Notes under the pieces: generated by a model
Seen by the model: only the letters and a program-made list of their open reading frames with translations
What the model was told of the DNA's origin: nothing
Databases searched by the model: none
Assembly (NCBI GenBank): GCA_027351005.1
Contig: DAIEJF010000073.1
Location: 1-39,340, forward strand
DNA length: 39,340 nt
From: Paracoccaceae bacterium
GTDB lineage: Bacteria; Pseudomonadota; Alphaproteobacteria; Rhodobacterales; Rhodobacteraceae
Reading direction: 5' to 3'
Translations under genes and position numbers: made by a program
Part shown: in pieces, positions 1,198-39,340 of the stretch
Layout: each line of letters starts with the position of its first letter
Numbering within the stretch: position 1 is the stretch's first letter

Positions 1198-1220
1198 TTT
1201 AAACCTCAAATGTTTTGCCG

Positions 1221-1249
1221 ACCATCGCCAAGGCCGCCCCGCTTGTCAA
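1221..1249 (-). promoter_or_regulatory. Candidate sigma-70 promoter of the FadJ-like gene
   Basis: On the minus strand a perfect -35 TTGACA (1249-1244) is followed 17 bp later by GATGGT (1226-1221), a weak -10. The ATG at 1197 then lies about 20 nt past the -10, after a short AT-rich leader containing GAGGT. This is the best promoter match I found in the left part, but the -10 is poor. Confidence 0.45.
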
Positions 1250-1269
1250 CGGTGGGGGCAAGACGCAAA

Positions 1270-1294
1270 CGGCCCGCCGGGTCAGGGCGGGCCG
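1270..1294 (-). terminator. Hairpin downstream of pcaF, probable terminator of the pcaIJF operon
   Basis: A 9-bp perfect stem, CGGCCCGCC / GGCGGGCCG, with a 7-nt loop lies about 50 nt past the pcaF stop. On the minus strand it is followed by TTTGCGTCTT, a short and imperfect T-rich tail. The strong stem and its position fit intrinsic termination. The weak tail leaves open partial read-through into the FadJ-like gene. Confidence 0.55.
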
Positions 1295-1341
1295 CTGCGC
1301 ATGGCCTTGTGCGCGGCCGCCCCGCGAGGTCTTGCGTCGGT

Positions 1342-2544
1342 TCAGACCCGCTCCAGCGCCACGGCGATGCCCTGGCCCACGCCGATGCACATGGTCGACA
1401 GCGACCGCCGCCCCCCTGTCAGCGCCAGTTCCAGCGCCGCGGTGCCGGTGATGCGGGCGCCCGACATGCCCAGCGGATGACCCAGCGCGATGGCCCCGCC
1501 GTTGGGGTTTACCCGCGGATCGTCATCCGCGATGCCCAACAGGCGCAGGGTGGCCAGGCCCTGGCTGGCAAAGGCCTCGTTCAGCTCGATCACGTCGAAA
1601 TCGGCAGGCGTCAGGCCCAGCCGCGCCATAAGCTTCTGGCTGGCCGGGGCCGGGCCGATGCCCATGATGCGCGGGGCCACGCCTGCGGTGGCGCCGCCCA
1701 GGATGCGGGCGATGGGGGTCAGACCATGCGCCCGCGCCGCCGCTTCCGAGGCGATGATGAGCGCCGCGGCGCCATCGTTCACGCCGCTGGCGTTGCCTGC
1801 CGTCACCGTGCCGCCCTTGCGGAACGGGGTCGGCAGCTTGGCCAGCGCCTCGATCGTGGTCGCGCGGGGGTGTTCGTCGCGGTCGACCACCAGCGGATCA
1901 CCCTTGCGCTGCGGGATGCTGACCGGCACGATTTCCCGGCCCAACCGCCCGTTGGCCTGCGCCGCCGCTGCGCGGGACTGGCTGCGCAGCGCGAAGGCAT
2001 CCTGATCCGCGCGACTGATGTGGTAGTCTTCGGCTACGTTCTCGCCCGTCTCGGGCATGGAATCGATGCCGTATTGCGCCTTCATCACCGGGTTGACGAA
2101 GCGCCAGCCGATGGTCGTGTCGTGGATCTCGGCGTGGCGGGAAAAGGCGCTGTCGGCCTTGGGCATCACGAAGGGCGCGCGGCTCATGCTTTCGACGCCA
2201 CCTGCGATCATCAGACTGGCCTCGCCCGCCCGGATCGCCCGCGCAGCCGTCAGCACTGCATCCATCCCCGACCCGCAAAGCCGGTTCAGCGTGGCACCCG
2301 GTACCGACAGCGGCAGCCCCGCCAGCAGCAGCGCCATGCGCGCCACGTTGCGGTTGTCTTCTCCCGCCTGGTTGGCACAGCCGAAGATCACGTCATCCAC
2401 CGCGGCCCAGTCCACGCCCGCGTTCCGGGCCATCAGCGCCTTCAGCGGCGCCGCGCCCAGGTCATCGGCCCGAACGGGTGCAAGCGCCCCGCCGAACCGG
2501 CCGATGGGGGTGCGGATATAGTCGCAGATGAAGGCTTCGGTCAT
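1342..2544 (-). CDS. pcaF: 3-oxoadipyl-CoA thiolase (acetyl-CoA acyltransferase)
   Basis: This 400-residue thiolase starts with the MTEAFICDYIRTPIGRFGG signature typical of PcaF/PaaJ-type enzymes. The nucleophile Cys lies in NRLCGSGMDAV (about residue 90). The C-terminal catalytic motifs are NPNGGAIALGHPLGMSGAR (His) and CIGVGQGIAVALE (second Cys). It cleaves 3-oxoadipyl-CoA with CoA to succinyl-CoA and acetyl-CoA, the last step of the beta-ketoadipate and phenylacetate routes. The start is 1 bp past the pcaJ stop, so it is the third gene of a tight pcaI-pcaJ-pcaF operon. A generic acetyl-CoA acetyltransferase is the alternative, but the neighbours strongly favour PcaF. Confidence 0.93.
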   Translation of the reverse strand: MTEAFICDYIRTPIGRFGGALAPVRADDLGAAPLKALMARNAGVDWAAVDDVIFGCANQAGEDNRNVARMALLLAGLPLSVPGATLNRLCGSGMDAVLTAARAIRAGEASLMIAGGVESMSRAPFVMPKADSAFSRHAEIHDTTIGWRFVNPVMKAQYGIDSMPETGENVAEDYHISRADQDAFALRSQSRAAAAQANGRLGREIVPVSIPQRKGDPLVVDRDEHPRATTIEALAKLPTPFRKGGTVTAGNASGVNDGAAALIIASEAAARAHGLTPIARILGGATAGVAPRIMGIGPAPASQKLMARLGLTPADFDVIELNEAFASQGLATLRLLGIADDDPRVNPNGGAIALGHPLGMSGARITGTAALELALTGGRRSLSTMCIGVGQGIAVALERV

Positions 2545-25628: not shown

Positions 25629-26416
25629 CGGCGGACGCGGCGGGGCTGGGGGCAGAGGTTCAGGCCGACGCGATGGACCCGGTGCGTGCCCTGGCGCTGG
25701 CGGCGGTCCTGGGCCACCCCTGGGCCCCCGCCCAGCCGCTGCCCCCCTTCTTTCACCGCGTCTATTTCTGGGAGGTGAGGCTGGACGGCGATCTTGGCCG
25801 CGATGGCCACCCGCGGGTGGGCGGGCTGATCCCCGATTTCGGTCTGCCGCGGCGAATGTGGGCCGGCGGTCGGCTGGAGTTTCACCGGCCGCTCTTTTCC
25901 GGGCAACCGGCCGAACGCAGGACGGTGCGCGACAGTGCCGTGCGCAAGCAGGGCCGCAGCGGCCCACTGGGCTTCGTGACCCTGCGCCACGAGATCTGGC
26001 AGAACGGTGCGCCTTGCGTGACCGAGTGGCAGGATCTGGTCTACCGCGAAGAGGCCCGCCCCGATGCGCCCCACGCCGCGCCCCCGCCTGCGCCCGACGT
26101 GGCTGACGAGACGCGCAGCCGTGCCTTCGATCCGGTGGGGCTGATGCGCTATTCCGGGCTGACGATGAACGGCCACCGCATCCACTATGACGCCGACTAT
26201 GCGCGCGACGTGGAAGGGTATCCCGGCCTCGTGGTCCATGCGCCGCTGCTGGCGCAGGTGATGATGCTGATGGCGCCGCAGCCGCTCAAGACCTTCCGCT
26301 TTCGCGCCGTGGCCCCGCTGTGCCTGCCCGCCGAAGCGGTGTTCGGGCGGCGTGGCAACCGCTTCTGGGTCGCGGGCCCCGGCGGGGGGCTGCGGATGGA
26401 AGGCGAGGCGGGCTAG
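25625..26416 (+). CDS. MaoC/HTD2-like hot-dog dehydratase (mesaconyl-C4-CoA hydratase-like)
   Basis: The protein has 263 residues. The N-terminal half carries FFHRVYFWEVRLDGDLGRDGH and GLPRRMWAGGRLEFHRPL, typical of FAS1-like dehydratase halves. The C-terminal half has FDPVGLMRYSGLTMNGHRIHYDADYARDVEGYPGLVVHAPLLAQ, with the conserved Asn/His/Tyr of HTD2 and mesaconyl-C4-CoA hydratases. It probably hydrates or dehydrates an acyl-CoA or acyl-ACP. The coupled FMN reductase gives no clear pathway. The ATGA overlap decides the start. The end shares CTAG with the convergent glycosyltransferase. Confidence 0.82.
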   Translation: MTADAAGLGAEVQADAMDPVRALALAAVLGHPWAPAQPLPPFFHRVYFWEVRLDGDLGRDGHPRVGGLIPDFGLPRRMWAGGRLEFHRPLFSGQPAERRTVRDSAVRKQGRSGPLGFVTLRHEIWQNGAPCVTEWQDLVYREEARPDAPHAAPPPAPDVADETRSRAFDPVGLMRYSGLTMNGHRIHYDADYARDVEGYPGLVVHAPLLAQVMMLMAPQPLKTFRFRAVAPLCLPAEAVFGRRGNRFWVAGPGGGLRMEGEAG

Positions 26417-27633
26417 GGCGCGGCGCGGGCGTAAAGCGCAAGCAGCGCCTCGGCCCAGTCGTCGGGCGTGCTGGCAAGCGCATTGGCCCGGTCCACGGCC
26501 CTGCGGCTCATGGCGGCCACCTCGGTGTCGGGCAGGTCGCGCAGGCGGGCGATGGCCGCCGTCAGCGTTTCGGGGTGCCGCATGTCGCAGGTGAAGCCCA
26601 GACCCCGCGCCACCACCTCGCGCGACAAGAGCGACGAGTCGGGCAGGATCACCGGCAGGCCGCTTTGCAGCGCCTCGGCCACCACCAGCCCGAAAGGTTC
26701 GCCGTGGCGCGAGGCCATCGCCACCCCGCGTGCGCGCTGCACCAGCGCGCCGATCTCGGCGCGGTCCTTCCAGCCGGTGAACGTCACCTCGGGATGGGCG
26801 CGGGCCAGGCTTTCGCGCAGGCTGCCCTCGCCCACCACCGTCAGGGGCATGCCCGCCGCACGGGCCGCGGCGATCAGGGCGGGGACCCCCTTATCCTCCT
26901 CGACCCGGCCGATGTAGAACAGGCTGCGGTTCGCCTCGGCCCGCACCCGCGTGGCGCTGTAGGCCGTCACCGGGTTGCGCAGCGTCACCATCCGTGCCGG
27001 ATCAAGCCCCGCAAGGCCAAGGATCGGCGCCATGTCGGGGTGAATGATGGCGATGGCCGCCCAGGGCAGGCGCTGGTCGAAGGCGCGAGCCAGCGCCGCC
27101 CCGCGCGCCGCGCGCCACAACTTGTGGGGGTAGCTGCGCTTGTCGCAATTCGTCGTCAGACAGTCCAGCCCCAGAGGGGTGCGTCGGCAGGGCGTTGCCG
27201 TCCGGTAGTCGGTAAAGACGCCGTTCGGGCAGGCCAGGAAGAAATCATGCGCATGCACCACGGTGCGCCGGGCCACCGGCTGCAAGGCGGCAAAGACCGA
27301 GGGCGACAGGATCTGGGCCCAGCCGTGCAGGTGGTAGACGGTGCCCGGCGTATCCGTCCTGGCGATCCAGGCGGCCAGCCGGTCGCGGGCGGCCCGGTTC
27401 CACAGGCCCGCGGTCAGCGCCTGGCCGCGGGGCTGGTCGAGCAGCCGCGCGCCCCCAGCCGCCACCACCTCGATCCCCGCCGCGGCCAGGGTGGGGTTGT
27501 CGCCCGCATCGCCGCAGAACAGCGTCACCGGCACGCCCCGCGCGCGCAGCAGCCGCGCCGACAGCAGCGCCAGCCCGGTGGCCCCGCCGCGCGCGGTGCT
27601 GGCATCGTTGAGGATCACAAGACGGTCGAACAT
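26413..27633 (-). CDS. Glycosyltransferase family 4
   Basis: The protein has 406 residues with a GT-B fold. The acceptor half starts MFDRLVILNDASTARGGATGLALL. The donor half contains RVEEDKGVPALIAAAR, VTFTGWKDRAEIGALVQRA and the EX7E motif GEPFGLVVAEALQSGLPVI. A Cys-rich segment (HAHDFFLACPNG, CRRTPLGLDCLTTNCDKRSYPHK) sits mid-protein, as in several GT4 enzymes of exopolysaccharide loci. It probably adds a sugar to a lipid-linked repeat unit at the inner membrane. It marks the left end of the polysaccharide locus and is divergent from the pyruvyltransferase gene. Confidence 0.9.
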   Translation of the reverse strand: MFDRLVILNDASTARGGATGLALLSARLLRARGVPVTLFCGDAGDNPTLAAAGIEVVAAGGARLLDQPRGQALTAGLWNRAARDRLAAWIARTDTPGTVYHLHGWAQILSPSVFAALQPVARRTVVHAHDFFLACPNGVFTDYRTATPCRRTPLGLDCLTTNCDKRSYPHKLWRAARGAALARAFDQRLPWAAIAIIHPDMAPILGLAGLDPARMVTLRNPVTAYSATRVRAEANRSLFYIGRVEEDKGVPALIAAARAAGMPLTVVGEGSLRESLARAHPEVTFTGWKDRAEIGALVQRARGVAMASRHGEPFGLVVAEALQSGLPVILPDSSLLSREVVARGLGFTCDMRHPETLTAAIARLRDLPDTEVAAMSRRAVDRANALASTPDDWAEALLALYARAAP

Positions 27634-27807
27634 CGGGGTGCGGGTCTGGTTACGGGCCTTGGCGGGCTAGCGGGCAAAGCGGGTGAAATTGTGACATGCT
27701 GCGGCATTGTTCTGACCATGGCACCGATCCGGGCGATTGGTGCGGCAAAGCTGAATGATCGCCGCGCCTGCCCGTGCTATGCCGCGCAAAGGCAAAGGGG
27801 AAGCGCG

Positions 27808-28998
27808 ATGAAGGTGGTGCAGTTCGGCCTGCGGTTCAGCCCGAATGTGGGCGACGGCATCATCGCCGACTGTCTGGCCCACGCGATTCGCAAGACCGTG
27901 CCCGGCGCCCGGGTCGAGATGCTGGACCTGTCGGGCCGCGGCGCCTTCGGGCAGGTGGTGGTCAGGAACCGGGCGCTGGCATTGCGGGTGCTGGGCTGGT
28001 TGCCCCCGTCCCTGCGGCGGGCGGTGGTCAGGGCACGGATCGGCCGGATGCTGGACCGGGCCGAACCCGGCTGGGCGCGGGTGGTCAAGGGGGCCAATCT
28101 GGCGATCCTGGGCGGCGGGCAGATCCTGGCCGATGCCGATCTGAACTTTCCGCTGAAGGTCGCGCGGGCGGTGAAGGTGGTGAAGGCCGCGCGGGTGCCG
28201 CTGGTGCTGCATGCGGTCGGGGTGCAGGGCGGCTGGTCGGCCGAGGGGCGGGCGCTTTTTGCCACCCTGCTCGGTGCCGACCTGCGGCAGGTGGGACTGC
28301 GCGATGAGGGCTCGCGCCGGGCCTGGCTGGCCGAGATCGGGGGGCAGGGGCCCGCGCCGGTGCTGACGCGCGACCCCGGGCTGCTGGCGGCGGCCTGCTA
28401 CGGGCCGGTTCAGCCGACGGATCGCGTCGGGATCTGCGTCACCGATCCCGCGATCCTGCGCTATCACGCCGATGCGGCGGTCGCCGGGGCCGGGGTGGCG
28501 GGGGTCGGCTTTTTCCGCGATCTGGTACAGGCGGTGGCCGCGGCGGGGCACCGGGTCACGCTTTTCTGCAATGGCGCGGCCGAGGACCGGGCCGCGCTTG
28601 ATGCGGTGATCGGTGATCCGGCGGTAGCGGCGATGGTGCTGGCCGGAACCGTGTCGTTGACCCCCCCGCCCGAGACGCCGCGCGATCTGGCGCTGGCCAT
28701 CGGCGGGATGCGCGCGGTGGTAGCGCACCGGCTGCACGCCTGCATCGTGGCCTGGTCCTACGGGCTGCCGGTGGTGGGCCTTGGCTGGGACCGCAAGGTG
28801 GAAAGCTTCTTTGCCTCGGTCGGGGCCGCGACCTTCTTCGCGGGCGAGGCGGCGACGACCGCCGCGGCGGTGGTGCAGCGGCTGGACGCGGCGCTGGCCG
28901 CACGGCCCGACCCGGCGCTGCGGGCGCGGGTGCTGGCCGAGACCGAGGCCGCGGTGCTGGCGGCGGTTCAATCCGCCCTGCGCAGCGTGAAGCGGTAG
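27808..28998 (+). CDS. Polysaccharide pyruvyltransferase family protein
   Basis: The protein has 396 residues from ATG 27808 (AGGGGA upstream); the track frame begins far earlier over the antisense glycosyltransferase and is rejected. The N-terminus VVQFGLRFSPNVGDGIIADCL and the motif AILGGGQILAD match the family. The signature VVAHRLHACIVAWSYGLPVVGLGWDRKVESFF is complete. It likely transfers pyruvate from phosphoenolpyruvate to a sugar of the repeat unit as a ketal, giving an acidic polymer. Its 3' end overlaps the convergent glycoside hydrolase gene by 31 bp. Confidence 0.9.
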   Translation: MKVVQFGLRFSPNVGDGIIADCLAHAIRKTVPGARVEMLDLSGRGAFGQVVVRNRALALRVLGWLPPSLRRAVVRARIGRMLDRAEPGWARVVKGANLAILGGGQILADADLNFPLKVARAVKVVKAARVPLVLHAVGVQGGWSAEGRALFATLLGADLRQVGLRDEGSRRAWLAEIGGQGPAPVLTRDPGLLAAACYGPVQPTDRVGICVTDPAILRYHADAAVAGAGVAGVGFFRDLVQAVAAAGHRVTLFCNGAAEDRAALDAVIGDPAVAAMVLAGTVSLTPPPETPRDLALAIGGMRAVVAHRLHACIVAWSYGLPVVGLGWDRKVESFFASVGAATFFAGEAATTAAAVVQRLDAALAARPDPALRARVLAETEAAVLAAVQSALRSVKR

Positions 28999-30629
28999 GC
29001 GGTGGCATCGCCCGTGGGGGTGCCGTTGGGGCCCACGGCGAATTCCAGCACATCCCCCGCCGCGAGATGCAGGGGCGCGGTCTTGCGCAGCGCCGCCGCG
29101 GTGATGATCGCGCCATCCACCGGCGTGCCGTTCAGCGTCAGGTCATAGCGGATGCCATCCGCGCTGCGAGGTCCGGGGGAAAGCTGCGCCTCGGCCGTCA
29201 CGGTCATGGCATCGGGCGCGGTGAAGCGGTGCAGGATCACCACGGGGCCGCCCGCATGGGCGCCGGGCAGCAGGATGTCGGCCGTCAGCCGGGCGAATGT
29301 GGTGCCAGGCACACCCAGATAGGGGGTCCAGGGCGCGCCCTGCCGGTCCTGCCCGCCGTGGGTCTCCAGCGGCACGACCCGCCCGCCGATCCGGGCCAGC
29401 CGGGCAAAGGGGTCGGCGGGTTGGCCCGGCACGCCGGGATAGGCGAACTGGTCATAGCTGTCGGCGATGACGGTCTGCGGCCCCAGCGACAGATCGCGCC
29501 CCAACGCCAGCGGGGCGTCGCCCCGGATCACCAGCGGATCGGTTTCCGACAGCCTGAGCGGCCCCCTCAGGGGCGCGCCGGTGGGGTCGGTGGCGCTGAG
29601 GTCGGCGCGGTGCAGCGTGACGGTGCGGGGTGCGCCCCAGATCACCAGCGTGCGCCCGCCGAAGAGGCAGGCATAGGTGAACGGGTCGGGGGCGGCATCG
29701 GCCACGGGCGCGCCTTCCATCGTCGCGGCGATCTGCCGGTAGGCATGGCCCACCGCGGTGGCCTTGCCCGCGGCGTCGATCAGGGGCGCAAGCCCGTCGC
29801 CGCGCGGGTTCAGCGGATACCACACGGCCCGTTCCACCCCCGACAGCGCCATCTGGCAGTAATCGCGCACGAGCAGGCCGGGCGCGCGGTTGGGGTCGGG
29901 CTCGCCGAACTCGGTCACGTCCAGCGGAAGGGTGGCGGCGCCGGGCAACTGGCGGAACACGGCCACCTGCCGCAGAAGCTGTTCGGGCGGGGTGGTGTAG
30001 GTGTGCAGCGCCAGCGCATCCATCGCCTGCGCCGCGCCCGCGTCGAACATCGGCGCCAGATAGCCCACCGGGATCGAATGCACGCCGCCGCCCAGAATTC
30101 GCACCTGCGGGTTCACCGCCGTAACCGCCGCCTGCACCGCGCGCAGGATGGCCAGCGTATCCAGCGCGCGTTCGGGCAGCGGCGCGGCCTTCACCGGGCC
30201 GGTGACGAAATTGGCGCTGTTCCATTCGTTGCCGACCTCGACCGCGGTGATGGCGGGGAAGCGTTTCACGGTTTCCGCCGCGGCATGGGCAAAGGCCGCG
30301 ATGCCCGCCGGGGTGTAGGGCGTCACGCCGCCATCCCAGGCGGGGTGGCCGTTGTTCACCGTCAGGCTCATGGTCATCCCGTTGGCGGCCAGCAGGTCGG
30401 GAAAGGTGGTCTCGCCCGTGGTGAAGCGGAAGCCCTTCGGCCCTTCCACCTCGTCCCAGTAGACCGCATCGCGAAAGTTCCGCACCCCCAGCGCCAGCGC
30501 CCCGGCGAAAAGCCCCGGCGCCCAGTGCTGCCCGAAGTTCGAGGCCGCGCCAAGTTCCGGCCCCCTCAGGTCCAGCGCGGCGGCGGGCAGGGCAAGGGTA
30601 GCGAGCAGCAGGGCAAGGCGGGCGGGCAT
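28968..30629 (-). CDS. Secreted clan GH-A glycoside hydrolase (GH39-like)
   Basis: The protein has 553 residues with a signal peptide (MPARLALLLATLALPAAALD). The catalytic domain covers roughly residues 20-340. The acid/base Glu is E135 in EVGNEWNSANF and the nucleophile is probably E240 in LPLDVTEFGEPD, the two sites expected for clan A. The C-terminal ~200 residues look like a beta-sandwich module. It probably cuts or trims the polymer made by this locus in the periplasm. Convergent overlap with the pyruvyltransferase gene; divergent from the membrane polymerase gene. Confidence 0.84.
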   Translation of the reverse strand: MPARLALLLATLALPAAALDLRGPELGAASNFGQHWAPGLFAGALALGVRNFRDAVYWDEVEGPKGFRFTTGETTFPDLLAANGMTMSLTVNNGHPAWDGGVTPYTPAGIAAFAHAAAETVKRFPAITAVEVGNEWNSANFVTGPVKAAPLPERALDTLAILRAVQAAVTAVNPQVRILGGGVHSIPVGYLAPMFDAGAAQAMDALALHTYTTPPEQLLRQVAVFRQLPGAATLPLDVTEFGEPDPNRAPGLLVRDYCQMALSGVERAVWYPLNPRGDGLAPLIDAAGKATAVGHAYRQIAATMEGAPVADAAPDPFTYACLFGGRTLVIWGAPRTVTLHRADLSATDPTGAPLRGPLRLSETDPLVIRGDAPLALGRDLSLGPQTVIADSYDQFAYPGVPGQPADPFARLARIGGRVVPLETHGGQDRQGAPWTPYLGVPGTTFARLTADILLPGAHAGGPVVILHRFTAPDAMTVTAEAQLSPGPRSADGIRYDLTLNGTPVDGAIITAAALRKTAPLHLAAGDVLEFAVGPNGTPTGDATAYRFTLRRAD

Positions 30630-30663
30630 CGGGGGTCCTATCGTTTCGCGCCATGGTATTCAG

Positions 30664-30692
30664 TTTTTCCACCGCGTCCCGCTCGTTTTTCC
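30664..30692. promoter_or_regulatory. Direct repeat TTTTTCC x2 (22 bp apart) in the divergent polysaccharide promoter
   Basis: TTTTTCC occurs at 30664-30670 and 30686-30692, two helical turns apart, between the divergent hydrolase and polymerase genes. It stands out against the GC-rich background. It could bind a regulator on one DNA face or be promoter T-tracts; no known motif assigned. Confidence 0.3.
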
Positions 30693-30735
30693 GGGCCGGG
30701 CGGCTATGCTGCGCTGCCGTTAGCCGTGAGGCCCG

Positions 30736-32157
30736 ATGCAGGTCGTTCTCAGTACACCGCTTGCCCTTCTGGTGGTGATCGCGCTTGCGATGAAGGGGCC
30801 CCATCGCGGGTTGTGGCTGTTCATGGCCACGACCCCCTTCGGCGCGGCCGCGGCCTTCAACCTGCCTGCGCTGGGCGGGGCCTCGATCATGATGATGGAT
30901 CTGGCGGCGGTGATGATGTTCACCGTGCTGTGGCTGCAGCCGCAATCGACCTCGCGCATCCTTGGCACGATGCGACCCTGGCTGCCGGGGTTCTTCCTGA
31001 TCCTGATGATCTTGTTCTCGGCCGTCTCGGCGGTGCTGTTTCCGCGGCTTTTCGGCGACATGACGCAGGTGTTCAGCATCGCGCGGACCAACAACGCGAC
31101 CGGCATCGTCGCGGTCGGGCTGCACCCGACCTCTGGCAACCTGACGCAGTTGTTCCGCATCCTGCTGGACGGGATCACCTTCTTCGCGCTGGCCACGGTG
31201 CTGCGGGAACGGCCTGACACCGCCATCGTGGTGCGGGCGATGGCGGTGGCGGCGCTGGTCAATGTGGCGTTGGGCTGGCTGGACGTGCTGGCCGGGACGG
31301 GGGCGGGGGCGGCCCTGCTGGCGCCGATACGCACCGCGAATTACGCGATCCTGTACGACGTGGCGATGGCCGGGTTGAAGCGGATGATCGGCGGGTTTTC
31401 CGAGGCGTCGTCCTTCGGCTATTTCACGCTGGGCATGTTCGGCTTCTGGCTGGTCTACTGGCTGCGGGCCGCGCCCTCGCGGCTGGCGGGATGGACGCTA
31501 GCGATGACCACCATCGTGTTGCTGCGCTCGACCTCGTCCTCGGCCTATGTGTCGATGATCGCCTTCCTTCTCACCCTGGGTGGCATCGCCGTGGCCCGGC
31601 ACCTTGGCCACAGCGTCGAACGGCGGCTGCTGGCCGTGGCGGTCTGGTGCGCGGTGGCGGGCTGGCTGGCGCTGCTGGCGATCGGCGCGGGCTATGTGCT
31701 GCTGGACCCGGTGAAGGCGTTCCTGGACCGCGCACTGTTCGACAAGCTGGAGACCGCGTCCGGGTTGGAGCGGATGCGCTGGAACCTGCAGGCGTACCGG
31801 AACTTCCTCGAGACCTCGATGATGGGCGCGGGCCTTGGTTCGATGCGCGCCTCGAACTGGCTGCTGGCCTGTCTGGGCAGTATCGGGGTGGTGGGCACCG
31901 GGTTGTTCCTGGCCTTTCTGGGCACGGTCTTTGCCGCCCCGACCCAACCGGGCGACCGCGACAGGGCGGCGGCGATCGACGGGATGAAGGCGGGATGCCT
32001 GGCCATGTTCATCTCGGCCATGCTGACCCAGCCAACCCCCGACCTTGGCATCGCCTTCTTCGCGATGGCGGGCCTTGGCGTGGGCCTGTCGCGCGGTGCG
32101 GCGGTCGAATCGAGCCGCATCAAAGGGCGGCGGAACTTGTATCAAATGGCGCAATAA
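30736..32157 (+). CDS. O-antigen ligase / Wzy-like polysaccharide polymerase membrane protein
   Basis: The 473-residue hydrophobic protein has about ten to twelve transmembrane helices and one larger periplasmic loop (VKAFLDRALFDKLETASGLERMRWNLQAYRNFLETSMMGAGLGSMRASNW). This is the Wzy_C-type arrangement found in polymerases and ligases. The loop residues FSEASSFGYFTLGMFGFW also fit. It probably polymerises lipid-linked repeat units at the outer face of the inner membrane. The Shine-Dalgarno GTGAGG precedes the ATG. It is followed by the Wzc-like gene after a 185-bp leader. Confidence 0.85.
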   Translation: MQVVLSTPLALLVVIALAMKGPHRGLWLFMATTPFGAAAAFNLPALGGASIMMMDLAAVMMFTVLWLQPQSTSRILGTMRPWLPGFFLILMILFSAVSAVLFPRLFGDMTQVFSIARTNNATGIVAVGLHPTSGNLTQLFRILLDGITFFALATVLRERPDTAIVVRAMAVAALVNVALGWLDVLAGTGAGAALLAPIRTANYAILYDVAMAGLKRMIGGFSEASSFGYFTLGMFGFWLVYWLRAAPSRLAGWTLAMTTIVLLRSTSSSAYVSMIAFLLTLGGIAVARHLGHSVERRLLAVAVWCAVAGWLALLAIGAGYVLLDPVKAFLDRALFDKLETASGLERMRWNLQAYRNFLETSMMGAGLGSMRASNWLLACLGSIGVVGTGLFLAFLGTVFAAPTQPGDRDRAAAIDGMKAGCLAMFISAMLTQPTPDLGIAFFAMAGLGVGLSRGAAVESSRIKGRRNLYQMAQ

Positions 32158-32175
32158 TCTTGCGATGACGGCCAG

Positions 32176-32212
32176 ATTGTAAGGTTGGCGCGATCAAATC
32201 AACTAATTGTAA
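32176..32212 (+). promoter_or_regulatory. Direct repeat ATTGTAA x2 upstream of the Wzc-like gene
   Basis: ATTGTAA at 32176-32182 and 32206-32212, spaced 30 bp start to start (about three helical turns), sits in the only AT-rich patch of the region. It is probably part of the promoter or a regulator site of the Wzc-like gene. The regulator cannot be named. Confidence 0.35.
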
Positions 32213-32286
32213 AGCATTCGTTTGACCGCCGCCTTGATTCTGCCCAAGTTCAGCCTCGTGGAGTGAGGTTTCGCCGACGGGCGGGG

Positions 32287-32296
32287 GTACCGGTAC
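32287..32296. promoter_or_regulatory. Perfect palindrome GTACCGGTAC in the Wzc-like gene leader
   Basis: A 10-bp perfect palindrome about 50 bp before the start codon, downstream of the ATTGTAA repeats. A regulator site or transcript structure is possible. Confidence 0.25.
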
Positions 32297-32325
32297 GGGT
32301 CTCGGAACAGCGCTTCGTTGCGCCA

Positions 32326-32341
32326 CGGAGGATATCCTCCG
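32326..32341 (+). promoter_or_regulatory. Perfect 16-bp palindrome covering the Shine-Dalgarno of the Wzc-like gene
   Basis: CGGAGGATATCCTCCG is a perfect palindrome ending one base before ATG 32343. It contains GGAGG, the only good ribosome-binding sequence for this gene. As RNA it can fold into a 6-bp CGGAGG/CCTCCG stem with an ATAT loop, hiding the ribosome-binding site. It could also be a DNA operator. Structure seen directly; control is inferred. Confidence 0.55.
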
Positions 32342-32342
32342 C

Positions 32343-34556
32343 ATGAGAGACACCATGAACAGCAGGTTGCTGCCCTTCGAGACAGCCGCAGCGGCCGCGC
32401 GCCGTCGGCTTCCACCGCCGACAGACCTCCCGGACAGGGTGGACCTGCGCGATCTTTTCGCGCTGATCTGGCGCAAACGCCGGATCATCTTCGCGGCAAC
32501 CGGTGCAGGCCTTGTGCTGGCGCTGGCGGTCAGTTTCCTGATGACCCCGCTTTATGCCTCGGTGTCCAAGGTGATGATCGAATCGCGCGTGCCGCAATTG
32601 GCGCGTTCGCAGCAGGTGGTGCAGGACCTTGCGGTGAACGACCAGGCGGTGAACAGCGTGGTGTCGGTCATCACGTCCAACGTGCTGATCGGAAAGGCCA
32701 TCGACGAGATCGGCCTGCCGGCGCTCGATGCGCTGGACCCGGCCAACGCGCCGCCGTCGCTGATGGCGCGCGTCAGTGGCGCGATCAGGTCGATCTTTCC
32801 CAGCCCGCCCGCAGGCCCCAGCCTGATGACGCCGGAAGAGGCCAAGCGCCAACGGCTGACCGCGGTGATCCAGAAGAACCTGAAGGTCACGCGCGAGTTG
32901 CAGGCCAATGTGATCGACATCCAGATGGCGCTGCCCGACCGGGTGCTGTCGGCCCGGATCGCGAACGCGCTGGCCAATGAATTCATTGCAAGCCAGGTGG
33001 ACACCCGGCGCGACACCGCCGGCAATGCGACGCGCTGGCTGGAACAGCGGCTGGCCGAAACCCGCAGCCAGGTCGAGCAGGCGGAAGCCGCGGTCGACAC
33101 CTATCGGGCGGCGCATCTTCTGAGCGACGGCGGCACGCTGGACGGGGCGACGCAGCAGTTGGGCGAGCTGAACAACCAGCTTGTGATCGCCCATGCCGAC
33201 CGGGTGACGGCCGAGGCGGCCTACAACCGCCTGCAGGAGGTGATCGCCAAGAACGGCATGACCGGCGTGCGCGACATCGTGACCTCGCCCACGCTGGATG
33301 CGCTGAACAGCCAGGTGATGGATCTGCAACGGCAGGATGCGATCTGGGCGGCGAACTATGGCCCGCAGCACCCCGAACGGGTGCGTCTGGCGGGCGAAAT
33401 CAAGGGCGTGCAGGACGACATCGCCCGCGAGGTGCAGAAGATCGTCGAACAGAAGAAAAGCGACATGGCGACGGCGGCGCTGCGGGAAACCACGATGCGG
33501 CAAAGCATCGCCGCGATGGAACAGCGGGTGGTCGAACTGTCGCAAAGCAACATCGGGCTGGGCCAGTTGCAGCGCGTGGCAGAATCTGCCCGCACCGCCT
33601 ACAACGACCTGCTGTCGCGCCTGAACGAGACCCGGACCGAACAGCAATTGCAAAGCCCGGATTCGCTCCTGATCGAGCGGGCGACGGTGTCGCGGCTGCC
33701 CTCTTCGCCCAAACCCCTGCTGATGGCGGCCGTGGGGGGGATGCTGGGGCTGGTGCTGGGCTTTGGCGTGGTCTTCTTTCAGGAAATGACCTCGGCCAGT
33801 TTCACCCGCGCGGTGGAACTGGAACGCGAGACGGGGCTGCCGGTGCTGGCCGCGTTGCCGCAGGGCGAATGGAACAGCCCGCTGGGGGCCTGGAGCGAGC
33901 TGTCGCGGCGCCCCTACGGCCTTTACGCCGAACGCATCCGGCATCTGCGGACCGCGCTTCTGATGAAGGACGGGCGTGGCGAGGCACGGGCCATCCTGCT
34001 GGCATCTTCGGTGCCCGACGAAAGCAAGACGACCACGACGCTGGCGCTGGCGCGAATGGCGGCGCTTGCCGGGCGCAAGGTGCTGGTGGTGGATGGCGAC
34101 CTGCGGCGCTCGACGCTCAGCCAGACCTTCGGCTGGACGATGACCCATGACTTTGCCGACTTCATCGCCAATGGCTGTTCGCTGAGCGAGGCGATCCTGC
34201 GGGATGAACGGCTTGGCTTCGACGTGCTGGCCTGCGCGCGGCCGCGCCCGGATGCGGCCGACCAGCTTTCGGAAACCTGGCTGGCGCCGATGATCGCGTC
34301 GCTGAAGCAGGCCTATGACCTGGTGCTGGTGGACGCGCCCGCGATGCTTGCCGTGGCCGATGCGCTGGTGCTGGCACAGGCGGTGGATGAAAGCCTGTAT
34401 CTGGTGCGCTGGCGGTCGACCGAACGCGGCGATGTTGCCAAGGGGCTGTCCCAGTTCGCCGAGGCGGGCGTCCCGGTCAGCGGCCTGGTGCTGACCCTGG
34501 TCGATCCCAAGACCGGCGCGGATGTGCATGCAGGTGATTATGACTATTCGCGCTGA
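32343..34556 (+). CDS. Wzc/ExoP-type polysaccharide co-polymerase with tyrosine-autokinase-like domain
   Basis: The protein has 737 residues (ATG 32343, or ATG 32355 inside the same frame). The order is: cytoplasmic N-terminus; TM1 (IIFAATGAGLVLALAVSFL, about residue 50); a Wzz periplasmic domain with long coiled coil (residues about 200-420); TM2 after the Pro-rich LPSSPKPLL (about 460); and a cytosolic BY-kinase-like domain. Walker A' (KVLVVDGDLRRS) and Walker B (LVLVDAPAML) are present. The P-loop is altered: PDESKTTTT, with Ser561 where Gly precedes the Lys. The tail has only two tyrosines (DYDYSR). It controls chain length and export of the polymer. Confidence 0.9.
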   Translation: MRDTMNSRLLPFETAAAAARRRLPPPTDLPDRVDLRDLFALIWRKRRIIFAATGAGLVLALAVSFLMTPLYASVSKVMIESRVPQLARSQQVVQDLAVNDQAVNSVVSVITSNVLIGKAIDEIGLPALDALDPANAPPSLMARVSGAIRSIFPSPPAGPSLMTPEEAKRQRLTAVIQKNLKVTRELQANVIDIQMALPDRVLSARIANALANEFIASQVDTRRDTAGNATRWLEQRLAETRSQVEQAEAAVDTYRAAHLLSDGGTLDGATQQLGELNNQLVIAHADRVTAEAAYNRLQEVIAKNGMTGVRDIVTSPTLDALNSQVMDLQRQDAIWAANYGPQHPERVRLAGEIKGVQDDIAREVQKIVEQKKSDMATAALRETTMRQSIAAMEQRVVELSQSNIGLGQLQRVAESARTAYNDLLSRLNETRTEQQLQSPDSLLIERATVSRLPSSPKPLLMAAVGGMLGLVLGFGVVFFQEMTSASFTRAVELERETGLPVLAALPQGEWNSPLGAWSELSRRPYGLYAERIRHLRTALLMKDGRGEARAILLASSVPDESKTTTTLALARMAALAGRKVLVVDGDLRRSTLSQTFGWTMTHDFADFIANGCSLSEAILRDERLGFDVLACARPRPDAADQLSETWLAPMIASLKQAYDLVLVDAPAMLAVADALVLAQAVDESLYLVRWRSTERGDVAKGLSQFAEAGVPVSGLVLTLVDPKTGADVHAGDYDYSR

Positions 34557-35730
34557 CCTGCCGCTGCCCCGCCTGCTGCGACCCGTCGGATCGGGCGGAA
34601 ACCGGGTTGCGCTGGTGCATTACTGGCTTGTCTGGATGCGCGGCGGTGAAAAGGTGCTCGAGGCGCTGTGCCGGATGTTCCCGGATGCCGACATCTATAC
34701 CCATGTGCATGTACCGGCCCGGATCAGCGACACGATCAACGCGCATCGGGTGCAGACCACACGGATCGGGCGTCTGCCCTTCGCCGGGCGGCTGTACCAG
34801 AAGTACCTGCCGCTGATGCCGCGGGCGCTGGAAGAGGTGGATCTGACTGGCTACGACCTTGTCATCTCGTCGGAATCCGGGCCGGCCAAGGGGGTGATCC
34901 CGCCGCCTGACGCGCCGCATCTGTGCTACTGCCATTCGCCGATGCGCTACCTGTGGGATCAGTACACCGTCTACCGCGACACCGCCGGGCCGCTGATGCG
35001 GCTGGTGATGCCGCGGCTGGCGCATGACCTGCGGGCCTGGGATATCGCCAGTGCCGCCCGTGTCGACGGCTTCGTGGCCAATTCCAGCCATGTAGCGAAC
35101 CGCATCAACAAGTACTGGCGGCGCGAGTCCGACATCGTGCATCCGCCGGTCGCGGTTTCGCAGTTCGCGCCGGTGTCGCGCGGCGCGGCGGACGATTTCT
35201 ACCTGTGGGCCGGGGAACTGGCGCCCTACAAGCGGCCCGATCTCGCGGTCGAGGCGTTCACGCGGATGGGCAGGAAGCTGGTGGTGATCGGCGGGCCGGA
35301 CAAGACCAGCCGCGCGCTGGCCGATACGGCGGGGCCAAACGTCACCTTCCTGGGCCAGGTGCCCTTTGCGGTGCTGCGCGATCATCTGGCGCGCTGCAAG
35401 GCGCTCATCTTTCCGGGCGAGGAGGACTTCGGGATCGTCCCGGTCGAGGCCATGGCCTCGGGCCGTCCGGTGATCGCCTATGGCCGCGGCGGGGCGCTGG
35501 ATACGGTGGTGGACGGCAAGACCGGCCTTCTGTTCCACGATCCCTCGGTCGACGGGCTGATCGAGGCGGTCAGGGCCTTCGAGGCGGAAGGGCTGGACCG
35601 GCTGGATGCCGGACCGCTGGTGGCCCATGCCCGCCGCTTTGACGAAACCGCGTTCCGCCGCGGCATTGCGGCCAGTCTTGCGCGGCTGGGGGTGGACATC
35701 GGGCCGGTCTGGCTCAGCCGGGCCAGTTGA
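34540..35730 (+). CDS. Glycosyltransferase family 4 (exopolysaccharide locus)
   Basis: The protein has 396 residues from ATG 34540, preceded by AGGTG, overlapping the Wzc-like gene by 17 bp; the track start at 34522 is a possible alternative. The N-terminal domain has VALVHYWLVWMRGGEKVLEAL. The GT-B donor domain has LWAGELAPYKRPDLAVEAF, VTFLGQVPFAVLRDHLARCKALIFPGEEDFGIVPVEAMASGRPVIAYGRGGALDTV, which contains EX7E. It resembles mannosyl- or rhamnosyltransferases of O-antigen and EPS clusters; the donor is unknown. Its 3' end overlaps the convergent CocE-like hydrolase by 17 bp. Confidence 0.9.
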   Translation: MTIRADLPLPRLLRPVGSGGNRVALVHYWLVWMRGGEKVLEALCRMFPDADIYTHVHVPARISDTINAHRVQTTRIGRLPFAGRLYQKYLPLMPRALEEVDLTGYDLVISSESGPAKGVIPPPDAPHLCYCHSPMRYLWDQYTVYRDTAGPLMRLVMPRLAHDLRAWDIASAARVDGFVANSSHVANRINKYWRRESDIVHPPVAVSQFAPVSRGAADDFYLWAGELAPYKRPDLAVEAFTRMGRKLVVIGGPDKTSRALADTAGPNVTFLGQVPFAVLRDHLARCKALIFPGEEDFGIVPVEAMASGRPVIAYGRGGALDTVVDGKTGLLFHDPSVDGLIEAVRAFEAEGLDRLDAGPLVAHARRFDETAFRRGIAASLARLGVDIGPVWLSRAS

Positions 35731-37471
35731 ACAGCGTCAGGCTGGACGGCGCGGCGATGGTGATCCGCGCCCGGTGCGGCACCGTTTCCCGGTTCGGGTC
35801 GGCGCTGCCGCCGTTCAGGTTGCGCGCCAGCCGCGGAAAGCTTGACCCCGCCACATCCAGCCGCAGCCGGTGGCCGGCTTTCACCAGCCAGGCGATGTCG
35901 CGCAGGCGCACCGTCACGGTGGCCGGCTGACCCGGCACCATCATCCGCGGCGCGCCATAGCCGTCGCGATAGCGCAGCCGCAGCGCGCCGGTCTGGAGCA
36001 TCAGCGACCTGCCATCGGGCGCCACATCGGTCAGGGTCAGCACCAGGTCGGTATCGGGCACGTCCGTTTCCACCGTCAGCCGCGCGCTGATCGGCCCGGC
36101 GATACGCAGGGGGGCCGCCAGCGGGGCCGAGGTATAGGCCAGCAGGTCTGCCCGGGCCTCGACCGGGCGCTGATCCAGCGGGCCCGCACGGGCGGCGGGG
36201 TCGCCGGTGCAGCAGATCGCGCCTCCCAGCGACGGGACGGGGTGCATCGGGTCCGAGGTGAAGCTGCGGCGGCCCGTGCTGTCGCCGGGGGCAAGCGTTT
36301 CGCCCGCCAGCGCATAGGTGACCGCCCTGGCCTCTGCCGGCGGCCAGGCGGTCGCGTCGCGCCAGACATCCTCGGCCAGAACATAGACGCGGTAGGGCGG
36401 CAGGGCGGGTGGCGGCGCGCCCTTCAGGTGCTGGCCCATGAAGGCGACAAAGAGGTCATCGAAGGGTTGCGGACGGCCGGTCACCGGCAGGTCGCCCAGC
36501 TTGCCGGATGCAAAGGCCTGCGTCAGGTCGCAGTGCAGCCCCGGCGCGATCAGGACATGGGCGCCGGGCATCTTTCCGGCCAGCGTCAGGGTGGCGCTGA
36601 CGTTCGGGTCATACCAGGTGTCGACCAGCAGCGCCGGCGTCTGGAACCTGTCGGCATCCGAGACAAAGCCCGCCCGCGCCCCATAGCCCGGATCGGAAAA
36701 GCCATCCAGCAGCGCCTCGTAATCCGTGGGGTCGGGCCGGGTCTGCCGCAGCGCGTCGCGCACCGGCAGGGTCGCCAGGCCGCGGGCATAGTCGATCGGG
36801 CCGGTGTCCATATGGGCGGGCGTCTTGCCGCCCCAGCGAGCAAACCAGCCATAGCCCGAGGCAAGCTGGAACACGCCCCCTTCGAACAGCCCGAAGAAGC
36901 CGTATGTGTCGGCCGCGGTGCCGACCGCCCCGCCCGCGCCGATGGGGATCATCGCCGCCAGATGCGCCGGGCGGCGGGCGGCCAGGATCACCTGCGCCTC
37001 GCCCAGCGCCGAACAGCCGATGGTGCCCACCTTGCCGGACGACCAGGGCTGCGCCGCGATCCAGTCGAGCGTCGCGGCGCCGTCCGCGGCCTCCATCGGG
37101 TAGGGCGCGAAGGTGCCGGCAGAGCCGTAGCGGCCGCGCATGTCTTGCACCAGCACGGCATAGCCACGCGCGGTGAACAGCGCGACCCAGTGCCGCGCTT
37201 CGGCGTAGAAGGTCTTGCCATAGGGCAGCCGCACGAGGATGGCGGGCACCGGTCCGGTGGCGTCCTTTGGCAGGTAGACATCGGTGGCCAGCCTTACCCC
37301 GTCGGCCATGCGCAGCGGCACGTCGGCCAGCCGTGTGGCGGGCAGGCTGCGGACAAAGGCGCCAAAGGCCCAGCGGTCGCGCAGAAGGTCCGCCTGCCGG
37401 TGCAGTGGCGCGCGGAAGGCCAGGCCCGCGGCCAGCAGCGCCGCGCCCAGAAGGATCAGCCCGGCCCGCAT
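35714..37471 (-). CDS. Membrane-anchored CocE/NonD-family (S15-like) hydrolase
   Basis: The protein has 585 residues. An N-terminal anchor (AGLILLGAALLAAGLAF) is followed by the alpha/beta hydrolase core. VLVQDMRGRYGSAGTF is the family hallmark, the nucleophile is S154 in TIGCSALGEAQ, the acid is near LLVDTWYDPNV and the His in IAPGLHCDL. The C-terminal jelly-roll is typical (ARLTVETDVPDTDLVLTLTDVAPDGRS, DIAWLVKAGHRLRLDVAGSSFPR). The family includes acyl esterases and X-Pro dipeptidyl peptidases. Located between EPS and NRPS genes, it might remove acyl or peptidyl groups outside the inner membrane (inference). Confidence 0.87.
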   Translation of the reverse strand: MRAGLILLGAALLAAGLAFRAPLHRQADLLRDRWAFGAFVRSLPATRLADVPLRMADGVRLATDVYLPKDATGPVPAILVRLPYGKTFYAEARHWVALFTARGYAVLVQDMRGRYGSAGTFAPYPMEAADGAATLDWIAAQPWSSGKVGTIGCSALGEAQVILAARRPAHLAAMIPIGAGGAVGTAADTYGFFGLFEGGVFQLASGYGWFARWGGKTPAHMDTGPIDYARGLATLPVRDALRQTRPDPTDYEALLDGFSDPGYGARAGFVSDADRFQTPALLVDTWYDPNVSATLTLAGKMPGAHVLIAPGLHCDLTQAFASGKLGDLPVTGRPQPFDDLFVAFMGQHLKGAPPPALPPYRVYVLAEDVWRDATAWPPAEARAVTYALAGETLAPGDSTGRRSFTSDPMHPVPSLGGAICCTGDPAARAGPLDQRPVEARADLLAYTSAPLAAPLRIAGPISARLTVETDVPDTDLVLTLTDVAPDGRSLMLQTGALRLRYRDGYGAPRMMVPGQPATVTVRLRDIAWLVKAGHRLRLDVAGSSFPRLARNLNGGSADPNRETVPHRARITIAAPSSLTLFNWPG

Positions 37472-37539
37472 GATGCCCCCCTTTTCCCCGGCGGTAGCCC
37501 CGGCCTATGCTGCCCCCGTCGGAGGCGGAGGGCGGGCAG

Positions 37540-38208
37540 GTGGACGTGGTGGTTGATCTGTGGCTCTGGCCGCTGGGGCAGGACCCAGGCGACGGGCCGC
37601 TGTCGCCCGCCGAGCGGGCGCGGGCCGCGCGGTTCCTGCGCCCCGCCGATGCGGTGGCCTATCGCGCCGCCCATGCGGGCCTGCGCGCGATCCTGGGGGC
37701 GGTGACCGGCACCGACCCGGCGGCGCTGGCGTTCCAGACCACGGCGCAGGGCAAGCCGGTGCTGCCGGGGGGGCCTGCGTTCAACCTCAGCCATGCGGGC
37801 GGCTGGGCCGCGCTGGCCGTGGCGCCGGTGGCCGTGGGCGTCGACATCGAGGCCCATCGCCCGGTGGAACCCGAGGTGGCGGCGCGGTTCTTTTCCGCCG
37901 CCGAACAGGCCGCGCTGGCGCCGCTGGCGGGGGTGGCGTGGCGGCAGGCGTTCTTCCGCATCTGGACCCGCAAGGAAGCCTTCGTGAAGGCGCTGGGCGT
38001 GGGCCTGTCGCATCCGCTGGACAGTTTCGATGTGACCGCGGGTGCCTCTGCGCAGCTTGTCCGCCATGCCACGGGCCGGGCCGCGGACTGGGCGCTGATC
38101 GACCTGCCGCTGGGCACCGGCTGGGCCGGGGCGGTGGCGGTGCAGACCGGCGGTGGCCCGGCGCGCATTGTCTTGCGCGCCGGGGCGATGCCGCTGCCCG
38201 GTCACTGA
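37540..38208 (+). CDS. 4'-phosphopantetheinyl transferase (Sfp type)
   Basis: The protein has 222 residues from GTG 37540, which has GGAGGG 7 nt upstream; the track ATG at 37507 lacks a ribosome-binding site but is in frame and cannot be excluded. Sfp motifs are FNLSHAGGWAALAVAP, VGVDIEAHRPV (Mg-binding Asp and Glu), and FFRIWTRKEAFVKALGVGL (catalytic Glu/Lys). It loads phosphopantetheine from CoA onto the Ser of carrier domains. Its convergent partner (7-bp overlap) is an NRPS with such a domain, a natural substrate. Confidence 0.92.
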   Translation: MDVVVDLWLWPLGQDPGDGPLSPAERARAARFLRPADAVAYRAAHAGLRAILGAVTGTDPAALAFQTTAQGKPVLPGGPAFNLSHAGGWAALAVAPVAVGVDIEAHRPVEPEVAARFFSAAEQAALAPLAGVAWRQAFFRIWTRKEAFVKALGVGLSHPLDSFDVTAGASAQLVRHATGRAADWALIDLPLGTGWAGAVAVQTGGGPARIVLRAGAMPLPGH

Positions 38209-39340
38209 CCCGCCTGTTCGGCCAGGAAGGCGTCGATCTCGCGCGCGAGGTCCGCGGTGCCGTAGTCCTGCCCGCGGTGCACCCGGATGTCGTCGATATA
38301 GACCGTCTTCAGCGGGCCGGTGACCACCTGTTCCCAGCCGATCGAGGGCGCGAAGGGCCAGCCGCGCGGGGTGATGCGGGTGATGACATGCAGCACCGGC
38401 GCGGCAAAGGGCTTCGGCCGGTAGCGGTTGCGGGCATGCGAGATGTAGGCCACGAACCGTTCCTGTTCGGGCTCCAGATCGGTCGCGCGCACCTTGTCGA
38501 TCAGGCGCAGCGCCTTGAGCAGGTGCAACAGCCCGCTCTTGCGCAGGATGCGGTAGCTGCCCAGCATGGCGGCCAGCGTCAAGGTGCCTTCCCTCACCAT
38601 CCGGCGCTTGTTCTGGAAGGCGTGCAGGCGTTCCAGCCAGCGGCTCAGGGGGCTGGCCTTCAGCCGTTCGACATAGCCCGGCTCCCACACGTCCTTGAGG
38701 ATCACGGCGCGCACGGTTTCGCCCTGCGCCTGAAGGACGCGGGCGGTTTCCAGCGCGATGTTGCCGTGCACGCAGACGCCGAACAGCACATAGGGGCCGT
38801 GCGGCTGCACCTTTCGGGCGACCCGGGCATAGTCTTCGGCGATCTGTTCGAAACTGCGCTCGGTCTGGTCGATGCCGCGCGTGCCGTCGAACAGGCGGAT
38901 GCAGGTGGCGGGGTGCCGATCCGCCATGTGGCCCAGCGCCGAGACCATGATCGCCACGTCGTTGACCGCAAGGATTGGCTGCGCCGTCCCCTCGGTCTGC
39001 AGGGGCTCGATCCGCCAGTCGTCCTCGATCACCGGGGCGGCGGGGCGCAGTTCGGCCGCGATCCGGGTGGCCAGCGCGTCAAGGGTCGGGTGTTCGTAGA
39101 GAACCCGCACCCCCAGCGCCACGCCGAAGGCCTGCCGGATGCGCGCCATCAGCCGCACCGCCAGCAGCGAATGCCCGCCCTGGTCGAAGAAGCTGACGCC
39201 GCGGGCGGGCTGGGCGCGGCCCAGCAGGTCGGCCCAGAGGGCAGCAAGGCGCACATGCACCTCGGCCGGGTCGGGGGCGGCGGGGCCTTCCGGGGTCGCG
39301 GGCGCCGTGGCCGCCACGGGCGGCGGCGGGGGCGGCGGTG
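38202..39340 (-). CDS. Nonribosomal peptide synthetase, C-terminal carrier and thioesterase domains (5' end beyond window)
   Basis: The track starts at GTG 39317, but the frame stays open to 39338 and encodes a run of prolines, so this is an internal linker and not the start. After PPPPPPP-VAATAPATPEGP comes a carrier domain: LAALWADLLG, FFDQGGHSLLAVRLMARIR (phosphopantetheine Ser encoded at 39168-39170) and LYEHPTLDALATRIA. A type I thioesterase of about 260 residues follows. The nucleophile elbow reads LFGVCVHGNIALETARVL, with Cys (codon 38772-38774) in place of Ser. The terminal part IRVHRGQDYG may hold the catalytic His. Adenylation and condensation domains should lie to the right of the window. 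The product is unknown; the context suggests a link to the polysaccharide. Confidence 0.88.
   Translation of the reverse strand, partial: PPPPPPPVAATAPATPEGPAAPDPAEVHVRLAALWADLLGRAQPARGVSFFDQGGHSLLAVRLMARIRQAFGVALGVRVLYEHPTLDALATRIAAELRPAAPVIEDDWRIEPLQTEGTAQPILAVNDVAIMVSALGHMADRHPATCIRLFDGTRGIDQTERSFEQIAEDYARVARKVQPHGPYVLFGVCVHGNIALETARVLQAQGETVRAVILKDVWEPGYVERLKASPLSRWLERLHAFQNKRRMVREGTLTLAAMLGSYRILRKSGLLHLLKALRLIDKVRATDLEPEQERFVAYISHARNRYRPKPFAAPVLHVITRITPRGWPFAPSIGWEQVVTGPLKTVYIDDIRVHRGQDYGTADLAREIDAFLAEQAGQ

Follow-up and report, generated by a model that had tools for sequence, protein, structure and literature searches.

A hybrid peptide-polyketide assembly line within a Wzx/Wzy-type exopolysaccharide locus of Rhodobacterales, and its possible role in decorating the polymer

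Why should a non-ribosomal peptide synthetase (NRPS) lie among the genes for an exopolysaccharide? The question is raised by contig DAIEJF010000073.1 of a Paracoccaceae bacterium, here called C263 or the window, the whole of whose 39,340 nt was analyzed and which is one of 326 contigs in a 3.35-Mb draft genome. Nine genes at positions 26413-39340 run from a glycosyltransferase to the end of an NRPS. We propose, with a probability of about 0.5, that this locus makes a Wzx/Wzy-type exopolysaccharide together with a dedicated short peptide-polyketide that would be joined to the lipid-linked repeat unit ahead of its flipping. The retention of polymer genes with a short-peptide assembly line in mostly aquatic and soil bacteria suggests that the peptide decorates the polymer; attachment, to the polymer or to its lipid carrier, is inferred.

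The NRPS end recognized at the window edge in the original prediction is the point at which the contig breaks inside the gene. The reading frame runs on into the left end of a second contig, C188, via an exact 30-bp overlap of low complexity (poly-proline). The join is safe because a close relative (G183) holds the entire block undivided on one contig, in the same order and at 91-98% identity, with the terminal-module gene intact. C188 also carries Wzx, ExoY-type, and GT2 genes, and therefore the assembly line is flanked by polysaccharide genes on either side; as judged by gene content, it lies centrally within a polysaccharide locus of Wzx/Wzy type. The only two condensation (C) domains of the genome are both on C188, and the assembly line is the sole NRPS in the genome. 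As far as the contig is readable, ordinary chromosomal genes lie beyond the GT2 gene. The locus reads as follows.

C263, 26413-27633, minus strand: glycosyltransferase GT4a (PF00534), with which the polysaccharide block begins on the left; almost all linked loci have it.
C263, 27808-28998, plus strand: polysaccharide pyruvyl transferase (PF04230, E 1e-20), optional in relatives; 27808 is the most likely start.
C263, 28968-30629, minus strand: PslG-like secreted glycoside hydrolase with an N-terminal hydrophobic signal (AlphaFold2 model), optional in relatives.
C263, 30736-32157, plus strand: Wzy-like polymerase/ligase membrane protein with about eight hydrophobic segments, its position kept in relatives.
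C263, 32343-34556, plus strand: Wzc-like chain-length protein with a tyrosine autokinase domain (Wzz, GNVR, AAA_31; TIGR01005).
C263, 34522-35730, plus strand: glycosyltransferase GT4b (PF00534).
C263, 35714-37471, minus strand: CocE/NonD-type hydrolase with an N-terminal hydrophobic segment (TIGR00976, PF02129, PF08530), accessory.
C263, 37507-38208, plus strand: Sfp-type 4'-phosphopantetheinyl transferase (PPTase; PF01648).
C263, 38202-39338, minus strand: C-terminal part of the terminal module, a peptidyl carrier protein (PCP) and a cysteine thioesterase (TE) (PF00550, PF00975).
C188, about 2-1680, minus strand: N-terminal part of the terminal module, a C domain and a small C-terminal piece of an adenylation (A) domain.
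C188, 1681-11286, upstream of the terminal module: hybrid of NRPS and polyketide synthase (PKS), 3202 amino acids (Pfam).
C188, 11451-12935: Wzx flippase (PF13440, PF01943).
C188, 13256-14008: ExoY-type sugar transferase (PF02397, E 1e-60).
C188, 14207-15136: GT2 glycosyltransferase.

Is this arrangement kept in other genomes? A search of the family (397 genomes) for the thioesterase domain, with a cut-off of 43% identity, gave eight genomes, the focal one included, and in the other seven, two of which (G092 and G140) have it on short contigs, the line or its terminal module lies amid Wzc, GT4b, and more polysaccharide genes. When 395 genomes of the order were searched with a thioesterase profile, seven further genomes came up, all of them linked (7/7), and the plasmid records of Rhodobacter sp. 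CZR27, Loktanella salsilacus, and Jannaschia sp. M317 are linked too. Linkage to polysaccharide genes was thus found in 18 of 18 examined loci with this type of thioesterase (the focal genome, 14 Rhodobacterales genomes, and three plasmid records), which span ten genus groups plus plasmids, and an ExoY-type sugar transferase is present in most of them. The gene orders vary: besides the focal order, ExoY and Wzx follow the terminal module in G313, G006, G789, and Loktanella, and G856 and CZR27 show further arrangements. Since the 18 loci share descent they are not 18 independent events, and the rearranged orders are the stronger argument. The plasmid-borne copies of the block (NZ_CP023550, NZ_CP072995, and NZ_CP081160) indicate that it can probably move between strains. 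A further genome recovered via the aminotransferase, G252, is also linked, with ExoY, CocE, and GT2 adjoining and Wzy on the same contig about 17 kb from the aminotransferase. Two more relatives recovered in that way, G143 and G017 (64% and 54% identity in the aminotransferase), were not placed in their genomic context and stand outside the linkage count.

The association recurs outside the order. In Azorhizobium oxalatiphilum the line, with a hybrid of 49% identity, lies in a locus that holds nucleotide-sugar enzymes, GT4b (42%), ExoY (55%), a Wzy-like protein (32%), GT2 (46%), Wza, and Wzc and, further along, DegT, GT25, and a flippase; several of these genes were named by sequence reading. 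G670, which belongs to a different family of the same class, has the line with Bac_transf, Wzz, Wza, GT4, a flippase, and WecG. The polysaccharide genes of G670 are largely of other lineages, so the association has arisen or persisted with more than one kind of polysaccharide machinery. Methylocapsa aurea (L121) was dropped as a relative, as only a C-A-PCP-TE module aligned in its 21-kb locus.

These data bear on the alternative named in the original prediction, that a natural-product cluster merely sits beside an exopolysaccharide cluster by chance or as a selfish neighbor. The two parts can indeed be separated, as in G349 and G254, but linkage in every examined locus, through rearranged orders and again outside the order, makes this reading very improbable, and about 25 other Rhodobacterales NRPS/PKS loci, among the matches listed, lack any homologue of Wzc, GT4b, or Wzx within 10 kb. 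The conservation of the loci refutes chance adjacency for practical purposes. Nor, save for the scattered genes of those same two genomes, does the NRPS form a separate conserved cluster free of exopolysaccharide genes, and the original expectation that it belongs with them is upheld.

What would the line make? The original prediction had advised counting domains to the right of the window and had entertained a single activated amino acid as the product; C188 instead holds two C domains, two A domains (A1 and A2), and an A remnant, so that a full three-module hybrid line is present. By Pfam the hybrid has the order A-PCP-KS-AT-ACP-aminotransferase-C-A-PCP (KS, ketosynthase; AT, acyltransferase; ACP, acyl carrier protein), and the separate terminal protein has the order C-(A remnant)-PCP-TE. 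The modules are A1-PCP; KS-AT(malonyl)-ACP-aminotransferase followed by C-A2-PCP; and the terminal C-(A remnant)-PCP-TE. In the focal line, active-site motifs are present in the KS (TACS), the AT (GHSVGE and HAFH), and the two C domains (HHxxxDG). The aminotransferase that follows the ACP and precedes the C domain is of class III (PF00202 at residues 1750-2069 of the hybrid, P0001) and has the pyridoxal phosphate lysine motif. Pfam detected no ketoreductase, dehydratase, or methyltransferase domain in the line. The malonyl-type HAFH motif and the lack of reducing and methylating domains together lead us to predict that one malonate is added and that its keto group is transaminated.

The A2 specificity code is DILQLGMVW in the focal genome, with near variants in every relative read. 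This is a glycine code, and A2 is accordingly predicted to activate glycine in all relatives read. The A1 code keeps the aspartate typical of α-amino acids and varies by lineage: DGFMLVFVD in the focal genome and, in Azorhizobium and G670, DAFWLGGTF, which is near the valine code. The terminal module is without an A core in all aligned Rhodobacterales and in Azorhizobium. G670 retains an A domain there with the code DILQLGMIW, which points to a predicted glycine specificity of the ancestral third module. In yersiniabactin synthetase one A domain serves several carriers; for the module without its own A domain here we likewise infer loading of the terminal carrier in trans, by A2. The present line differs from that system in its ordinary C domain, its use of glycine, its A-domain remnant, and the glycine-coded A domain kept in G670. 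The predicted product is thus a variable starter amino acid extended by one malonate, with the keto group converted to a β-amine, and then glycine; a second glycine, loaded in trans by A2, is probably added. The β-amino-acid-forming PKS/NRPS of McyE type, known from microcystin and nodularin, has the same KS-AT-ACP-aminotransferase-C-A-PCP order. It also has a methyltransferase domain and a glutamate-activating A domain, whereas the present line has an amino-acid-loading A-PCP starter, no methyltransferase, a glycine code in place of glutamate, and a polysaccharide context. Assignment to a siderophore or known lipopeptide synthetase was rejected: the block has no iron-uptake genes, and no named NRPS family was matched at the cut-off (NCBIfam).

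The nucleophile of the thioesterase is a cysteine (GVCVHGN in the window), as it is in 22 of 22 relatives read. Its model matches PCP-TE structures including EntF, SulM, and ObiF1 (SulM/ObiF matches 8w2d and 6n8e). Apart from an AcpS-like protein, the focal genome has no PPTase other than the Sfp-type one of the cluster, and the cluster PPTase is the sole Sfp-type enzyme in all nine line-bearing genomes tested. Three line-less genomes gave a single AcpS-like match only, the reading as AcpS resting on frame length.

Does the polymer depend on the line? A Wzy search recovered many line-less genomes in which Wzc, GT4b, Wzy, the hydrolase, the pyruvyl transferase, GT4a, GT2, and ExoY lie wholly or partly together, and ten genomes carrying this polysaccharide core gave zero matches to the condensation domain. 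The line is itself separable. The genes of G254 are scattered, with the hybrid, the PPTase, ExoY, and GT2 on one contig, the terminal module and the flippase on a second, and the rest on a third, and in G349 the line lies apart from the sugar genes. The line is therefore an add-on module to a widespread polymer.

One component of the polymer machinery changes with it. A tree of 31 flippases separates those of all 17 linked loci (17/17), together with G353, from those of most line-less loci and of the scattered G254 and G349, across a branch of length 1.14 with support of 99/96. Presence of the line requires two changes on this tree compared with 10.5 in shuffles. The GT4b, Wzc, and ExoY trees mix line-bearing and line-less loci and require six changes each. 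Wzx proteins prefer their own repeat unit and sense terminal side-branch residues (PMC6436433). A Wzx lineage that switches with the line is what would be expected if the flipped unit bears the peptide, and we regard the sorting as support for a decorated flipping substrate, not as proof.

Under the proposed scheme, the PPTase would serve the line, on which the acyl chain X-(β-amino C2)-Gly-(Gly) would be assembled. The cysteine thioesterase would pass this chain to an amino or hydroxyl group of a sugar in the undecaprenyl-linked repeat unit on the cytoplasmic side, the matching Wzx would flip the decorated unit, Wzy would polymerize the flipped units, Wzc would control export, and the PslG-like hydrolase would trim the polymer, whose charge and cohesion the peptide would alter. 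More tentatively than for the locus as a whole, we suggest that it is the thioesterase that transfers the β-amino-acid/glycine peptide, yielding a peptidylated exopolysaccharide with a Wzx to match, and that this is a general bacterial route for placing non-ribosomal peptides on surface glycans.

Several observations weigh against decoration of the polymer. At least ten genomes have the core but lack the line, and the polymer thus does not require the peptide. The flippase gene adjoins the line in most loci, and joint inheritance could explain the sorting; partial sorting by line is seen for GT2, GT4a, and Wzy as well; G353 is an exception in the flippase tree, G254 and G349 have the other flippase type, and two long-branch rows of the tree are unsure. 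The second histidine of the HHxxxDG motif in the terminal C domain, an otherwise conserved domain, is replaced by glutamine, arginine, or asparagine in 9 of 22 relatives, which makes the chemistry of this domain uncertain. Starter specificity varies by lineage; such variation is unusual in a fixed decoration of a polymer and would suit a diversifying small molecule.

This last point, like the occurrence of the core polymer alone, favors the main rival, which is that the line produces an unattached, secreted small molecule (a signal, an antibiotic, or a metal ligand) whose genes travel with those of the polymer because the two serve surface life and share regulation. The thioesterase fold also resembles, among others, those of SulM and ObiF1, which release free products; these enzymes share with the present one a PCP-TE arrangement with a cysteine nucleophile, and their products contain strained rings. 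We nevertheless consider a free product rather unlikely, because the block contains no dedicated exporter or resistance gene (no exporter other than Wzx was found among its genes), the line is tightly embedded among polysaccharide genes in varied orders and also outside the order, and the flippase lineage switches together with it.

A third possibility is a special role as anchor, primer, or cap: joined to one end of the chain or to the lipid carrier, the product would retain the polymer on the cell or stop its growth. The rkp-1 region of the rhizobial K-antigen system offers an analogue, a proposed lipophilic product, and rkpA is an earlier case of a synthase devoted to the carrier or anchor of a capsule (PMC3557214). 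As a synthase dedicated to a surface polysaccharide, it is also the nearest precedent found for the present line. The PPTase and line do form a module separable from sugar assembly. However, rkp-1 has another gene set, the product predicted here is a short and polar amino-acid/glycine chain rather than a lipid, and most linked loci have an ExoY-type undecaprenyl sugar transferase, so that a normal lipid carrier is available. An anchor role is improbable on these grounds, well behind a free product.

Decoration of the polymer, as we propose it, would have a functional parallel in the Dlt system, which D-alanylates teichoic acids. Both would move a carrier-bound amino acid to a surface polymer; Dlt uses a single A domain and transfer by a membrane-bound O-acyltransferase (MBOAT), whereas the line here has several modules and the block lacks an MBOAT gene. 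The remaining genes resemble those of Wzx/Wzy exopolysaccharide loci (ExoY-type transferase, Wzx, Wzy-like protein, Wzc-like kinase, GT2/GT4, pyruvyl transferase, and PslG-like hydrolase), and the three-module line with its own PPTase sets this locus apart. The open papers searched describe no NRPS/PKS placed in a locus of this kind, a provisional result, as most subscription journals lie outside that literature. Non-ribosomal peptides and polyketides are almost always studied as free molecules. If our reading is correct, certain cryptic NRPS/PKS clusters that are at present classed as orphan natural products supply components of surface polymers, which would explain the lack of a visible free product. 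It might also help in engineering polysaccharides that bear peptides and in asking how thioesterases and flippases handle glycolipid acceptors.

All nine window genes of the original prediction are present, with codon structure typical for high GC. Pfam and NCBIfam assign most of them, the glycoside hydrolase and the Wzy-like protein being without a Pfam match. The packing is tight, as described, with genes that overlap or almost touch, but they occupy both strands and form a compact block, not a single operon. GT4b is the best conserved enzyme of the block (51-97% identity among linked relatives). The Wzy-like protein, polytopic and conserved in position, gave zero Pfam or NCBIfam matches. 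The hydrolase model, built from ten relatives, has a predicted local distance difference test score of 88 and its best PDB matches (5bx9 and 9g17) are PslG of the Pseudomonas Psl system; N134-E135 and E240 are invariant. There is no Wza outer-membrane exporter in the block, and two Poly_export genes lie elsewhere in the genome; Wza is inside the block in CZR27 and Azorhizobium.

The CocE-type hydrolase had been cast as a reverse or trimming enzyme, a core role that does not fit its distribution: it has no match in at least eight linked loci (G324, G781, G960, G313, G789, G801, G961, and Jannaschia) and by this comparison is an optional member. An α/β hydrolase follows the terminal module in Azorhizobium (L120, 11084-12181) and G017 (L022) and is a possible stand-in for CocE.

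More distant Rhodobacterales frames, with aminotransferases of 43-49% identity, occur in G022, G064, G121, G145, G197, G067, and G298; they may be other β-amino-acid-forming lines. On a plasmid of Aliiroseovarius sp. M344 (NZ_CP081154.1, L203), a different NRPS/PKS, of the MupA/Atu3671 monooxygenase type, adjoins an XrtD exosortase and a VPLPA-CTERM protein.

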